Positions 6,151 to 11,166 of a stretch of 64,000 bases of DNA are shown in pieces. The stretch's first letter is position 1. Every line of letters begins with the position of its first letter. Source of the stretch: Streptomyces kanamyceticus (lineage in GTDB: Bacteria > Actinomycetota > Actinomycetes > Streptomycetales > Streptomycetaceae); NCBI RefSeq assembly GCF_008704495.1, contig NZ_CP023699.1:7626001-7690000 (forward strand), given 5' to 3'. The translations under genes and the position numbers were made by a program. The notes below the pieces were generated by a model. It was not told the DNA's origin. It saw nothing but the letters and a program-made list of their open reading frames with translations, and made no database searches.

Positions 6151-7116
6151 CTACTCCCAGTCCCACTCGATCCCCAATATCCCCGCCCGCACCTGCGGCT
6201 CCACCAGATGCACCGAGCGGTGGCTGCCGCTCAGGGTGAGCTGCTGGCGGTTCCCGCGCGGCGCGGCCGCCGAGTGCTGGGTGAAGCGGTGGCACCGCAC
6301 GGGCAGCGCCTGTTCGTCGAAGCGGACCTGCAGCGCGTACTGCCCGCCCGCGTAGGTGAAGCCGCGCTGGTACTCCGTGGCCACGCCCGCCGTGCCGTCC
6401 TCGAAGCCGTAGCCGAACAGATGGGTGTCACCCGCGCGCAGCCGCGCGTCGAAGAGCAGCTCGGCGACGAGCACCCCGGTGCCCCGGTGCCAGCGCACGC
6501 GTCCCGTACGGCAGTTCTCCAGGGCGCGCACGGCGATCCGCTCGGGGGCGCACCCCGGATCGCCGTGGTGAATGGCCACATAGCGGTCGACGCCGTCCTT
6601 GTGGGCGCGCACGATGTGCTGCGACTGTCGGCCGAGCAGCTCGCGCCGCGCGCCGATCCGCAGCCTTTCGTGCTGGCCGATGGTGTGCAGACCGCCGTCG
6701 ACGGGGGAGCCGAGCTCGTCGAGGAGGGCGCGCAGGACGTCGGAGGCCTCGACCAGGGAGCGGTACGAGCGGGCCGCCGGACGCTCCCTGTCGGCGCGCC
6801 CCGACGGCGGCGCGAGCAGCCGGATCAGCGACTCCTCCGGGAGCTGGAGAATCTCCTCCAGGGCGCGTACGGCCCGCAGCGACTCGGCACGCTGGGGGCG
6901 GCGCGCGCCCTGCTGCCAGTAGCTCAGGCTCGTCACGCCGACCGTGACCCCGTGCCTGGCCAGATGGTGCCGGACGCGCTGCAGGGGCAGTCGTCGTACG
7001 GCGATGGCGGTGCGCAGCGCGACGTGGAAGGGTCCCGTGCGCAGGGCCGCCTCCAGGTCCGCGGGCGCTTCGTCTCCTTCGGCCGCGCCGTCGGCGAGCC
7101 GTGTGCCGTGCCGCAA
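6151..7116 (-). CDS. Conserved helix-turn-helix regulator-like protein
   Basis: A 321-residue protein with an N-terminal HTH (about residues 25-95: RRLPLQRVRHHLARHGVTVG, then SLSYWQQGARRP). A C-terminal domain I do not recognise follows; it contains several short beta-like segments and ends in WDWE. The start is read as TTG at 7116 because no ATG or GTG is available in frame and an AAAGGG ribosome-binding site lies just upstream. A perfect palindrome precedes this RBS and may be its own operator. Regulation of the divergent protease operon is possible but not shown. Confidence 0.72.
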   Translation of the reverse strand: MRHGTRLADGAAEGDEAPADLEAALRTGPFHVALRTAIAVRRLPLQRVRHHLARHGVTVGVTSLSYWQQGARRPQRAESLRAVRALEEILQLPEESLIRLLAPPSGRADRERPAARSYRSLVEASDVLRALLDELGSPVDGGLHTIGQHERLRIGARRELLGRQSQHIVRAHKDGVDRYVAIHHGDPGCAPERIAVRALENCRTGRVRWHRGTGVLVAELLFDARLRAGDTHLFGYGFEDGTAGVATEYQRGFTYAGGQYALQVRFDEQALPVRCHRFTQHSAAAPRGNRQQLTLSGSHRSVHLVEPQVRAGILGIEWDWE

Positions 7117-7130
7117 GATGGACCCTTTCT

Positions 7131-7142
7131 GTGAACGTTCAC
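7131..7142. promoter_or_regulatory. Perfect 12-bp palindrome, putative operator
   Basis: GTGAACGTTCAC is a perfect palindrome directly upstream of the RBS of the HTH gene. The half-site GTTCAC recurs at 7203-7208 and 7223-7228 in the same intergenic region. Confidence 0.5.
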
Positions 7143-7340
7143 TTATCCCGTCCCGGCGTTCGTGCCGGTCGGAGCGGGTTGCCAGGTCGGCGCACGAGCC
7201 GTGTTCACATCCGTACGCCGCCGTTCACGTCCCAAGTCATTCCGCATTGAAGCGTGTTGACCTGCACCCGACAACACTCGATGCTCAATCGCAGCGTCCG
7301 GACGCGCTCCTCCAACCCCACCCCGCTCGGGAGGAACGCG

Positions 7341-8000
7341 ATGCGCCACTCACCCACCACGAAGAGCAGTCCCGGCAGACGGAGACGCCTTTCCACCGTC
7401 GCCTTCGTCGCGGCCGCGCTCTTCGCCGCACCCACCGCCGCTGCCGCGGCCGCCCCGCTCGACCCCGCCCCCGCACACCGGGCGACGACCGCCACGGCCG
7501 CGGCCGACCCGTCCGTACTCGCCGCAAAGCGCCTGAACATCACCATGCAGGCCCAGCAGAAGACCAACTGGTGCTGGGCCGCGGCGGGCAACACCATCGC
7601 CACCTTCATGGGCCGCAACTACAGCCAGAACCAATTCTGCAACGCCGCCTTCGGGCGCAACCAGAACACCGAATGCCCCAACAACCAGGCCACGCTCGGC
7701 AACGTGCAGACCGGTCTGCGCTGGGCGGGCATCAACTCGGGCTCGTACGTGACCGGTTGGCTGCGCTACCCCACCGTACAGGCGGAGATCAACGCGGGCC
7801 GCCCGGTCGAGACCCGCATCCAGTGGTCCAACGGCGGCGGGCACATGCACGTCATCTACGGCTACGACGACGCCAACAGTTGGGTCTACTGGGGCGATCC
7901 CTGGCCCTCCAACGACCGCTACAACTGGGCCTCGCACGCCTGGTACACCGACAACAACACCTTCTCCTGGACCCACTCGCTCTACCGGATCGGGGCGTGA
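7341..8000 (+). CDS. Secreted papain-like cysteine protease
   Basis: A 219-residue exported protein with a signal peptide (about residues 1-35: basic RRRR, then an Ala-rich hydrophobic core ending near AAAAA). The mature part has the papain-like triad layout of the AvrRpt2/C39-like group: catalytic Cys in TNWCWAAAGNTI, catalytic His in GHMHVIYGYD, and a downstream Asp/Asn in YWGDPWPS. A GGAGG-type RBS precedes the ATG. The downstream gene starts 5 bases after its stop, so the two are co-translated and probably act together outside the cell. The substrate is unknown. Confidence 0.87.
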   Translation: MRHSPTTKSSPGRRRRLSTVAFVAAALFAAPTAAAAAAPLDPAPAHRATTATAAADPSVLAAKRLNITMQAQQKTNWCWAAAGNTIATFMGRNYSQNQFCNAAFGRNQNTECPNNQATLGNVQTGLRWAGINSGSYVTGWLRYPTVQAEINAGRPVETRIQWSNGGGHMHVIYGYDDANSWVYWGDPWPSNDRYNWASHAWYTDNNTFSWTHSLYRIGA

Positions 8001-8005
8001 GAGCG

Positions 8006-8863
8006 ATGACCCGTCAGCTTCCCCGACACCTCCTGAAGGCGGTACTCGCCGGTAGTGCCGCGACCCTCGCGCTCGGCATCGCGGCCCCCGCCGCAACCGC
8101 CGACTCGGGCCCCGCCGCCCCCTCGGCGGCCTCCCGCGACGCCGCGCACGAGGCGGCCGCCGCGCCCGGGACCCTCGACACGCTCTCCCGCTTCTTCGCG
8201 CGTGAGGGAGCGGTCACCAAGGCCGCTGCGCAGCCGCGCGTCCAGGGTGGGGCCGTGCCCGTGTACTACCTCTCCCCGGACTTCGTCGCGGGCAAGAAGG
8301 GCGCGTCGATCGCCCGCCTGGAGTTCCTCGCCAGCAAGGCGGTCTCCTCGGACGGCCAGGAAGCCTCCCTGTGGACCGTGGAACAGGGCGGCTCCTGGCA
8401 GGTCGTGAACATCGCCACCGGGGACGACGAGACGCACTACGCGCGCGTGGGCGCGGAGAAGGTTCCGGGAGGCACCGTCTTCCACGAGCCGCAGATCAAC
8501 GCCTGGTACGTCCGCGACGGCCGGGACGATGCCCACGCGCGCGTGCTGCCGCTCGACAAGGACGCGGTCCGTGCCGTGGGCGCCGAAGGCACCTCGGTCG
8601 CCGCCTACCGCAAGCGCGTCCAGAAGGCGTACGGCGACAAGCTGCCGGGCTCGGCGTACGAGAAGTCGGGCAAGGCGGGCGGTTACGACACCGCGAAGCC
8701 CGCGCGGAAGCCCGAGCAGATGCCCGCTCAGGAGTCCGCCCAGGAGCCCGTGGAGGGCCCGGTCACGGTTGCCTCCTCGATAGCCGGGGCGGGCGCGCTG
8801 CTCGCCCTCGGCATCTCGGGAACGGCACTCGTGCGACGCCGCGCGGCGCGCCGACAGGGCTGA
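8006..8863 (+). CDS. Secreted membrane-anchored hypothetical protein, partner of the papain-like protease
   Basis: A 285-residue protein of unrecognised family. It has a Sec signal peptide (about residues 1-32), a globular middle (LYLSPDF-like segment near 88, then a beta-rich stretch around WTVEQGGSWQVVNI), a Pro/Glu/Gln-rich linker near 235-252, and a C-terminal hydrophobic helix (VASSIAGAGALLALGISGTA) followed by RRRAARR. This is a typical type-I anchor with a positive cytoplasmic tail; no LPxTG sortase motif is visible. Tight coupling to the protease gene suggests it is a chaperone, inhibitor, anchor or substrate of that enzyme. Confidence 0.75.
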   Translation: MTRQLPRHLLKAVLAGSAATLALGIAAPAATADSGPAAPSAASRDAAHEAAAAPGTLDTLSRFFAREGAVTKAAAQPRVQGGAVPVYYLSPDFVAGKKGASIARLEFLASKAVSSDGQEASLWTVEQGGSWQVVNIATGDDETHYARVGAEKVPGGTVFHEPQINAWYVRDGRDDAHARVLPLDKDAVRAVGAEGTSVAAYRKRVQKAYGDKLPGSAYEKSGKAGGYDTAKPARKPEQMPAQESAQEPVEGPVTVASSIAGAGALLALGISGTALVRRRAARRQG

Positions 8864-8951: not shown

Positions 8952-9899
8952 TCAGCTCAGCGCGCTGCCCGCGCGCCACTCCTTCCAGCCGACGTTCCAG
9001 TTTCCGTAGCCGTTGCCCGTCGCCACGGTCTCCTCGGAGCCGACCACCCGCACGATGTCCCCGGGGATCACCTCTTCGTAGAAGCGCCGCGCGGTCCCGT
9101 CGGTGGCCAGTCCTATGCAGCCGTGCGTGACGTTGCGCTCGCCCGCGGTGGCGTTCGCGTTCGGGTTCTCGTGCAGGTAGGTCCCCGAGGTCGTCAGGTG
9201 GACCGCGTAGTTGTAGTAGTCCTTGTAAGCCTTTCCGTAGCCCACGGTCCGGGAGTCCATGAGCACCCGCGACTGCTTGTCGAGGACGACCATCGTGCCG
9301 TTCCAGGTGTCCATGCCCGGCGCGCCCGCGGTGACCTTCACCCGGCGCGTCCTGCCGTCCTTCACCACCGTCATCGTGTGGGTCCGCACGTCCACGGTGG
9401 CGACCAGCGAGCGGCCCACACCGAACGTCCTCGTCGTCCCCGCGCCCGCCCGGACGGTGACCTTCGTGCCGGGCTTCCACGGCTCGCGCGGCCGGTAGTC
9501 CACGCGCTGTCCTTCGTGCAGGTTGCGGTCCTCGACCCAGCTCCACGAGCCCGTGACGCCGGGCCGTGCCGTCACCTCAAGGCGTCGCTCGACGGCGGCC
9601 CGCTCGGCGACCGGCACCGGCCTGTCGAAGGTGAGCGATATCGGCATGCCCACCCCGACGGTCTGCCCGTCCGTGACGTTGAGCCGCACGCCCTTGAGCG
9701 CGGCGGGCTCCGGCACGGGCTCAGGCTTCGCCTCCTTCTTCCCCGACGCCCCCCGGCCCGCCGTCGTCGTCGTGGGCCTGGCGTCGGCCGCACGCTCGTC
9801 CGCGCCGTCGCCCGCGGAGCAGCCCGCGAGCACCAGAGAGCAGAGCGCGGCCGCGCCCCACGCGCGCGTGGCGCGTCTCATCGTGATTCCTGTGGTCAT
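8952..9899 (-). CDS. L,D-transpeptidase lipoprotein (YkuD domain)
   Basis: A 315-residue enzyme that makes 3-3 cross-links in peptidoglycan or attaches proteins to it. The N-terminus is a lipoprotein signal ending in LAGC (Cys27). An Ig-like LDT domain follows (about 70-165), then the YkuD catalytic domain (about 166-290) with H234 in YAVHLT and the motif THGCIGL carrying H259 and the nucleophile C261. The C-terminal tail ends in NWNVGWKEW. An internal ATG at 9881 has the better-spaced AGGA RBS and could be the true start. It is divergent from the ECF sigma operon that encodes a dead copy of the same catalytic domain. Confidence 0.92.
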   Translation of the reverse strand: MTTGITMRRATRAWGAAALCSLVLAGCSAGDGADERAADARPTTTTAGRGASGKKEAKPEPVPEPAALKGVRLNVTDGQTVGVGMPISLTFDRPVPVAERAAVERRLEVTARPGVTGSWSWVEDRNLHEGQRVDYRPREPWKPGTKVTVRAGAGTTRTFGVGRSLVATVDVRTHTMTVVKDGRTRRVKVTAGAPGMDTWNGTMVVLDKQSRVLMDSRTVGYGKAYKDYYNYAVHLTTSGTYLHENPNANATAGERNVTHGCIGLATDGTARRFYEEVIPGDIVRVVGSEETVATGNGYGNWNVGWKEWRAGSALS

Positions 9900-9918
9900 C
9901 GTTCCCCCTGGGCTGTGC

Positions 9919-9952
9919 TTCGATGTACGCGACGTTTCGACGTACGCGACCT
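9919..9952. repeat. Tandem 17-bp direct repeat in the LDT/sigma promoter region
   Basis: Two adjacent 17-bp copies (TTCGATGTACGCGACGT at 9919-9935 and TTCGACGTACGCGACCT at 9936-9952) match at 15 of 17 positions. A partial third GTACGC starts at 9953. They lie just upstream of the L,D-transpeptidase gene and are candidate binding sites for a regulator. Confidence 0.55.
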
Positions 9953-10000
9953 GTACGCACGGGGGAGGCGGCGGGTTGCGGACGAGATACGGGAATTTCT

Positions 10001-10040: not shown

Positions 10041-10562
10041 ATGACGGAGGACGAGTTCGACGCGTTCTACGCCGCCGCCTTCCCGCGCCTGGTCGGCCAG
10101 TTGTACGCCCTGACCGGGGACCACGGCGAAGCGCAGGACGTCGTCCAGGAGGCGTTCGTACGCGCCTGGGACCGCCGCGACAGCTTCCTCGCCGACCAGG
10201 CACCCGAGGCCTGGATCCGCACCGTCGCCCTGCGCCTGGCGGTCAGCCGCTGGCGCAGGGCCAGGCGCTGGCTCGACCTGGTGCGCGGGAACCCGCCCGC
10301 CGATCGCGTCCCCGGCCCCGGGCCCGAGCACACCGCCCTCGTCCAGGCGCTGCGCACCCTCCCCGAGGCGCAGCGCACGGCCGTCGTGCTGCACCACCTG
10401 TGCGACCTGAGCGTGGAGCAGGTAGCCTCCGAGACCGGCTCGCCCGTCGGGACGGTCAAGGCCCGCCTCTCGCGCGGCAGGGCGGCGCTCGCCGCGCGAT
10501 TGTCCGTGGAGCGGGACGGCGACGACGGGCGGAGCGCGAAGGAGGACGGCCGTGTCCGATGA
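10041..10562 (+). CDS. ECF (SigE-family) RNA polymerase sigma factor
   Basis: A 173-residue group 4 sigma factor. Region 2 spans about residues 5-60 (FDAFYAAAFPRLVGQLYAL, then EAQDVVQEAFVRAW) and region 4 spans about 103-155 (LRTLPEAQRTAVVLHHL, then the HTH VEQVASETGSPVGTVKARLS). It overlaps the next gene by 11 bases, which ties it to that membrane protein as its likely regulator. The target genes cannot be read directly; the divergent L,D-transpeptidase is the best candidate because of shared domain content. Confidence 0.92.
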   Translation: MTEDEFDAFYAAAFPRLVGQLYALTGDHGEAQDVVQEAFVRAWDRRDSFLADQAPEAWIRTVALRLAVSRWRRARRWLDLVRGNPPADRVPGPGPEHTALVQALRTLPEAQRTAVVLHHLCDLSVEQVASETGSPVGTVKARLSRGRAALAARLSVERDGDDGRSAKEDGRVR

Positions 10563-11166
10563 CCTGAGCGCCGCGCTCCACGACCTCGCGGCCGACCGCC
10601 GCACGCCCCCTCCGGTGCCCGGCGCCGAGATCCGCTGCCGCGCGGTGCTGCGCCGCCGCAGGCGCCGCGCCGCGGTCGCGGGCGGCGCCCTCGTCACGGC
10701 CGCCGTCGCGGTGACCGTCATCGTCGGCCTGCTCCCCGGTTCCGACGACGGCCCGGACAGGACACCGGCACCCGTCGCCACCCAAGGCCACCGCAAGGTC
10801 GTCGCCACCCTCGACCTGGACACGCACCGGATGACGGTCGACGGCAGGACCCTGCCGGTCTCCGCGGGCAGCGCCCAACACCCCACCCCGACCGGCCGGA
10901 TGACGGTCACCGCCGTCCACCGCGAGAAGCGCATGCCCGCGGGGGACACCGGCCTCGGCGGTGAGTACGACCTGAAGCTGCCCTGGGTCGTCGAGCTGCG
11001 CACCCCCGACGGCCGCACCAACTACCTCGTCGCGCTGACCTACGACGAGAAGGCGCCGGGCGTCAGGGACATCACCCGGGGCTGGATCGGCCTGCGCACG
11101 GACGACGCCCGCTGGCTCCACGACCGGCTCGAACCGGGCGACGTGATCACGGTCCGGGCCGGCTGA
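10552..11166 (+). CDS. Membrane protein with catalytically dead L,D-transpeptidase-like domain, putative anti-sigma/sensor
   Basis: A 204-residue single-pass membrane protein: short cytoplasmic N-terminus ending in CRAVLRRRRRR (residues 29-39), a transmembrane helix at about 41-61, and an outer domain at about 80-204. The outer domain aligns with the YkuD domain of the divergent transpeptidase: NYLVALT here against NYAVHLT, and TRGWIGL against THGCIGL. Both His residues and the Cys nucleophile are replaced (A161, R176, W178), so it cannot act as a transpeptidase. The gene starts with GTG behind a GGAGG RBS, inside the sigma factor gene. Membrane topology and coupling suggest it controls the sigma factor; this is inference. 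Confidence 0.8.
   Translation: MSDDLSAALHDLAADRRTPPPVPGAEIRCRAVLRRRRRRAAVAGGALVTAAVAVTVIVGLLPGSDDGPDRTPAPVATQGHRKVVATLDLDTHRMTVDGRTLPVSAGSAQHPTPTGRMTVTAVHREKRMPAGDTGLGGEYDLKLPWVVELRTPDGRTNYLVALTYDEKAPGVRDITRGWIGLRTDDARWLHDRLEPGDVITVRAG

Follow-up and report, generated by a model that had tools for sequence, protein, structure and literature searches.

Why would the gene of an ECF sigma factor overlap the gene of a membrane protein that carries a catalytically dead L,D-transpeptidase (LDT) domain? This question is raised by a locus of Streptomyces kanamyceticus lying within a stretch of 64,000 nucleotides (contig NZ_CP023699.1, positions 7,626,001 to 7,690,000), hereafter called the window, to whose numbering the coordinates refer unless another locus is named. 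The original prediction, made from the sequence of the window, was that the outer domain of the membrane protein binds a peptidoglycan stem peptide, or competes with the live LDT encoded nearby, and passes that state to the sigma factor. We describe the locus and the state of its dead domain, then the distribution of similar loci (designated by L and a number) in Streptomyces and the genes facing them, and finally discuss how the membrane protein may act.

Organization of the locus

The locus contains three genes. On the reverse strand, positions 8952..9899 encode an LDT lipoprotein of 315 residues with a lipobox-like LAGC motif, a Big_10 domain, and a YkuD domain, in which His243 and Cys261 are both present. 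Divergent from it, on the forward strand, positions 10041..10562 encode an ECF sigma factor of the SigE family, as indicated by a TIGR02983 score of 175.2 bits (curated cut-off, 141.55) and by Pfam matches to both regions 2 and 4. The sigma gene shares 11 bases with the next gene (10552..11166, forward strand, GTG start), the 204-residue product of which is a membrane protein with a dead YkuD domain, referred to below as the partner.

The partner can be divided into three parts, all encoded on the forward strand: an N-terminal module (residues 1-42, 10552..10677) with two predicted helices and an Arg-rich end, presumed to bind the sigma factor; a predicted membrane helix at about residues 43-60 (10678..10731), which is a hydrophobic stretch modeled with low confidence (pLDDT <50); and a YkuD-fold domain (residues 82-204, 10795..11163). 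The N-terminus is basic, and the sequence and the positive-inside reading agree on a cytoplasmic N-terminus, a single helix, and an outer C-terminal domain. This reading agrees with the architecture that had been predicted.

Around the locus, positions 7254-8000, upstream of the LDT gene, encode a papain-like cysteine protease of the Peptidase_C70/C39-like type (Pfam E 3.5e-13), a relative of which is found at the equivalent place in the close relative L055. The uvrC gene is located 3' of the whole locus in L055 also, and 3' of the partner gene in L031; in the other relatives, the surroundings vary.

A YkuD domain devoid of catalytic residues

The partner and the neighboring LDT are 36% identical over 126 residues (BLASTP). 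This alignment and a profile alignment with mycobacterial Ldt3 give the same assignment of the catalytic columns: His243 of the LDT (TYLHENP) corresponds to Val160 of the partner (codon 11029-11031), His259 to Arg176 (11077-11079), and Cys261 to Trp178 (11083-11085). Hence, all catalytic positions are replaced, as originally proposed, Arg176 and Trp178 included, but the first His column is that of Val160 and not of Ala161, since the His of NYAVHLT, located upstream of the catalytic one, had been aligned.

Structure prediction of the outer domain, which had been suggested as a check, yields a confident YkuD fold, that of the L,D-transpeptidases (PF03734), without the catalytic Cys and His. The protein is thereby distinguished from the mycobacterial L,D-transpeptidases (LdtMt1-3, 4xvo), which are enzymes with Cys and His at those places. 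Among 222 proteins, the window's included, none has the Cys of the [ST]HGC motif and none has a His at the catalytic His column, Trp occupying the Cys column in 166 of them. In the 120 listed of 156 relatives (again with the window's), the Cys column reads W 106, V 5, A 5, S 2, and M 2, and the His column V 54, A 27, G 25, L 12, F 1, and I 1. The YkuD fold persists even in a clade where Pfam recognizes only 7 of the 52 aligned members. Many members of the family are labeled L,D-transpeptidases in databases, and those of a related clade are mostly labeled hypothetical. Streptomyces venezuelae and S. avermitilis are among the species with a listed relative.

Distribution and age of the sigma/partner pair

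A sigma clade, defined by scores >250 bits, was found in 57 of the 295 Streptomyces genomes searched, and all 57 loci were read, rough GC-frame gene calls being left out of the counts. In the 54 loci with downstream sequence, the partner is of the YkuD type in 50 and of the DUF4232 type in 2, and none was recognized in the last 2; where present, the YkuD partner stands directly 3' of the sigma gene in the position listings. The pairing of sigma factor and YkuD partner seen in the window is thus the usual one in this clade. Two clade sigma genes (L105, L107) have neither a recognized partner nor a divergent site of the kind described below.

A homologue with an intact Cys would have pointed to a recent inactivation confined to the window strain. 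There is none among the 222 proteins, which rules out this possibility, and the loss of the catalytic residues, judged from these sequences, is old. A second family of the order was represented by loci from 7 of 14 searched genomes, picked by their YkuD hits (L087-L089, L093-L096); in 7/7, a sigma gene is followed by that of a YkuD protein in which the Cys column is occupied by Asp, Glu, His, or Gly.

Of the 83 YkuD domains placed in an unrooted tree (after thinning from 105), 59 are devoid of Cys, and these form one side of a branch (support 100/99) that is found in all 200 bootstrap trees. A single loss of the catalytic residues is therefore likely, although an unrooted tree does not prove it. 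Eight sigma-linked live LDTs form their own clade among the live enzymes; a ninth row labeled as a neighbor (L092) is not sigma-linked. Since the dead domains stand on one side of the branch and the neighboring LDTs group with the live enzymes, the dead domain is not a recent duplicate of its neighbor.

A conserved site facing the divergent gene

Between the LDT and sigma genes of the window, an ECF-type promoter-like site, GCAACC-N15-GCGTAC, is found on the reverse strand (9953..9979; -35-like GCAACC, 9979-9974; -10-like GCGTAC, 9958-9953). It points to the LDT gene, 53 nt from its start codon. The presumed leader of the LDT transcript (9900-9952) contains two near-copies of GTCGCGTACGTCGAA.

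This site is not particular to the window. When 42 non-redundant upstream regions were searched blind for spaced word pairs, pairs present in 28 of them were obtained, against 7-11 for the best pair in ten shuffles. What emerges is the site GCAACC-N15/16-GCGTAC, with a nearly invariant core GCAAC-N16/17-GCGTA, on the strand leading away from the sigma gene and toward the divergent gene. Among the 56 loci having at least 1.5 kb of upstream sequence, the site and a recognized target are both found within the stretch read in 47, both are missing in 9, and no locus has one without the other (Fisher p 1.3e-10, uncorrected for kinship and with pattern and score limits fixed after first looks at the data; several of the 9 loci are close relatives). 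With less than 1.5 kb upstream, L065 is outside this count; it shows neither site nor target. Besides, the stretch GTGCTTCGATGT is seen again 5' of the sigma gene in many loci, including some without the divergent site.

The targets are of several kinds. An LDT gene is found in 23 of the 56 loci, that of a peptidoglycan glycosyltransferase (PF00912), which is part of an operon, in 26, both in 5, and either in 44. In 20 of the 23, the LDT gene is full length, and the catalytic Cys is kept in 20/20, the window's included; L060, L063, and L064 give a partial match (102-138 bits). In the remaining three target loci, the divergent gene is DUF4232 lipoprotein-like (two loci) or TM2/TRIQ-type proteins alone are found (L068). 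The gene of one or the other enzyme near 44 of the 56 loci supports the original interpretation. In 21 of the 56, the glycosyltransferase is present with no LDT match, and competition with the live LDT is therefore not supported as a general mechanism.

As the same site occurs in loci with the LDT only, with the glycosyltransferase only, and with DUF4232, the sigma factor is the common factor. The conservation and orientation of the site speak for the divergent gene being its target, and the local sigma factor would be the one that uses it. A conserved promoter for the sigma gene itself, on the sense strand, was not found with the one pattern tried (AAC-N-CGT); autoregulation, usual in ECF systems, was therefore not seen with that pattern.

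A constant module with exchangeable outer domains

Searches of Pfam and NCBIfam assign the N-terminal module of the partner to no anti-sigma family, and the HxxxCxxC zinc motif, frequent in class I (ZAS-type) anti-sigma factors, is absent from residues 1-42. Co-variation of evolutionary distances was considered as proof that this module binds the sigma factor and is not decisive: the correlation with sigma is r 0.64 for the N-terminus and 0.74 for the outer domain, so that the N-terminus is not singled out.

A similar module is found in front of other outer domains. In L090 and L091, a clade sigma gene is followed by that of a DUF4232-type partner, and the divergent protein also belongs to DUF4232; the N-terminal module of the L090 partner resembles that of the window type (50% over 74 residues). 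Within each genome, the two DUF4232 copies are identical at 143/144 and 138/138 positions, but across genomes, the partner of L091 shares 72% with the divergent protein of L090. Inverted repeats of 99-100% surround the sigma gene (458 nt in L090, 5485-5942 and 7078-7535; 494 nt in L091, 5678-6171 and 7377-7870). The identity of the copies falls within these repeats, as expected from recombination between them, and the DUF4232 twins probably show concerted evolution, being kept identical in this way.

A third case is seen in L044 and L046, where a second sigma gene is followed by that of a membrane protein, the outer domain of which is 50% and 46% identical, respectively, to an adjacent secreted protein; in L044 (2816-4849), the membrane protein has no Pfam match at E 0.001. 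In L067, the single frame of the divergent gene (7011-8243) joins an ECF-sigma-like part with region 4 to a membrane helix and to an outer domain of the L044/L046 type. It precedes a peptidoglycan glycosyltransferase gene, and Pfam finds region 4 and not region 2. Similar fusions are seen by eye in L056, L062, and L072, the Pfam check concerning L067 alone. Finally, the partners of second-tier sigma factors (about 205 bits; L108-L120) have a similar N-terminal module and membrane helix, and a different, unnamed outer domain (weak profile hits, 19-38 bits). Two of these loci, L113 and L120, carry tandem copies of the membrane protein gene.

For three unrelated outer domains, an exported protein encoded next door is thus a paralogue, the pairs being dead YkuD/live LDT, DUF4232/DUF4232 lipoprotein-like protein, and the unnamed domain/its secreted form. 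A single-sequence search for paralogues within loci retrieved the DUF4232 pairs of L090 and L091, the tandem copies of L113 and L120, a weak match in L070 (32 bits), and, for YkuD/LDT, only the pair of L049 (2e-4), the other YkuD/LDT pairs resting on Pfam, on BLASTP of the window pair, and on profile hits. In the other second- and third-tier sigma loci, this search found no matched neighbor apart from the tandem copies, and pairing is thus not a rule for all relatives. For some Streptomyces ECF loci, we nevertheless tentatively suggest a wiring rule, according to which the outer domain of the partner is the twin of an adjacent exported protein, mostly placed under the divergent site of the sigma factor, and sensor and effector are swapped together. 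The exported twin would take the same ligand, thereby closing a feedback.

A putative membrane anti-sigma factor and the alternatives

The combination of a constant sigma-side module with exchangeable outer domains is the pattern of a sensor-regulator, either a membrane anti-sigma factor or a co-regulator. The partner gene also adjoins that of the sigma factor and is coupled to it, by the overlap in the window and by co-occurrence in 50 of 54 loci. The observed architecture and linkage, together with the lost catalytic residues and a conserved site coupled to its target, make it probable in our view, though far from assured, that the partner is a membrane anti-sigma factor having a dead enzyme as sensor, in feedback with cell-wall genes. 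Residues 1-42 would hold the sigma factor at the membrane, and the outer domain would read the state of the cell wall, through a signal that may be a fragment of the wall, another protein of the envelope, or a change caused by an antibiotic. Upon a change at the outer domain, the sigma factor would be released and could then transcribe from the conserved divergent site, driving the neighboring gene, the live LDT in the window and the glycosyltransferase operon elsewhere. By mending or re-crosslinking the wall, the products may bring the signal to an end.

How the outer domain evolves bears on what it could sense. Its ω values, from a simple Nei-Gojobori count, are 0.36-1.17 in ten locus pairs (two of which share L102), vs. 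0.04-0.16 for the sigma factor in the same number of pairs and 0.13-0.46 for the live LDT domain in five; a separate five-pair count on the last 150 residues of the partner gave 0.35-0.92, and ratios for the N-terminal module, mostly based on some 24-43 codons, were left aside. High GC lowers synonymous counts, so that only the contrast between these values is meaningful. Conservation was ranked over the 122 positions of the outer domain using the 120 listed of 156 relatives (effective number, 34). The loop of the former active site is among the best conserved parts, with T175, G177, I179, G180, and L181 in the top 20 and Trp178 at rank 33, in contrast to the former His columns, which have drifted (Val160, rank 82; Arg176, rank 120). 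We take this to mean that the fold is preserved and put to another use, its surface changing rapidly.

If the old groove bound an uncrosslinked stem peptide, or if the outer domain competed for it with the live LDT, free LDT substrate would be reported. This possibility agrees with the retained fold and conserved loop and with the presence near the partner of a live LDT, as a full gene in 20 of 56 loci and in part in 3 more. But the Trp that usually replaces Cys probably fills the pocket, the His columns are not maintained, the domain evolves fast whereas this ligand would be invariant, and 21 of the 56 loci have a glycosyltransferase and no LDT match. Stem-peptide sensing, as first proposed, is thus weakened to an unlikely variant, although the fold that it requires is there.

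Relaxed constraint would also account for the ω values, which approach 1 in several pairs and to that extent count against the sensor reading. The outer domain would then be a relic, acting as a spacer or a folding core, with sensing carried out elsewhere or not at all. Against this stand the persistence of the YkuD fold in the clade that Pfam hardly recognizes, the conservation of the former active-site loop, and the maintenance of the domain behind a sigma gene in the other family of the order (7/7 loci); we hold such a relic to be less likely again than stem-peptide binding.

Still lower in our ranking comes the use of the divergent site by another sigma factor, for example SigE of the cell-envelope stress response, with the local sigma factor controlling something else. 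CAACC-like -35 elements do occur in SigE promoters of Streptomyces coelicolor (PMC6767563). However, in the rows available of that source, the SigE -10 element is most often CGTC and never CGTA, whereas all 47 sites described here read CGTA, as required by the search pattern. The presence of the site also tracks the local sigma locus and its target, and among the 11 exact matches to GCAACC-N14..17-GCGTAC in the window genome, the only one that reads TGCGTAC is the window site. That the partner serves the wall directly, for instance by scaffolding the live LDT or glycosyltransferase, without regulating the sigma factor, fits its outer YkuD fold and the wall-enzyme genes near 44 of 56 loci but is improbable, because the constant element is the sigma factor rather than any single wall enzyme, the two genes overlap in the window, and the partners of related sigma factors carry other outer domains.

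Relationships with known systems

The putative anti-sigma factor with a dead-enzyme sensor can be compared with four systems. In Clostridioides difficile, the anti-sigma factor RsiV of sigma-V has a paralogue in the same operon, LbpA, without the sigma-binding part, and a wall-modifying target, PdaV (PMC9044953); the window shares the paired domains, with a paralogue of the outer domain in an adjacent exported protein. The likeness concerns the way of working. RsiV binds lysozyme, and LbpA is membrane-bound and encoded in the operon rather than divergently (PMC9044953). In BlaR1/MecR1, the gene encoding a live enzyme is under the control of a transpeptidase-like domain located outside (PMC8092216), but BlaR1 binds the drug covalently and its protease domain acts on a repressor, whereas the window protein has no catalytic residues and its gene is partnered with that of a sigma factor. 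The sigma-P/RsiP/PbpP system of Bacillus thuringiensis also couples an ECF sigma factor to a transpeptidase-type sensor of wall stress (PMC8092216); there, the sensor is a separate penicillin-binding protein, PbpP, the active-site serine of which must bind the drug, in contrast to a dead YkuD domain within the sigma-linked protein itself. Finally, SigE-CseABC of S. coelicolor is an ECF system with L,D-transpeptidases among its targets; it has two-component control and no anti-sigma factor, besides the -10 difference mentioned above (PMC6767563).

In the literature searched, mainly open access, no description of a sigma factor or ECF system with a dead YkuD (L,D-transpeptidase) partner was found among the matches listed, in line with the original statement that no such pair was known; a term search in the accessible part of PMC8103513 gave no matching passage.

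Implications for cell-wall sensing in Streptomyces

In many Streptomyces, a sigma factor is paired with a membrane protein bearing a dead copy of a cell-wall enzyme, frequently with a functional counterpart encoded next to it, and this arrangement suggests a role of the dead copy in sensing the state of the cell wall. Given the conserved divergent site, a single reporter would suffice for a direct test, and the exchange of twin domains could be used to study how bacteria monitor the state of 3-3 cross-linking or wall synthesis.
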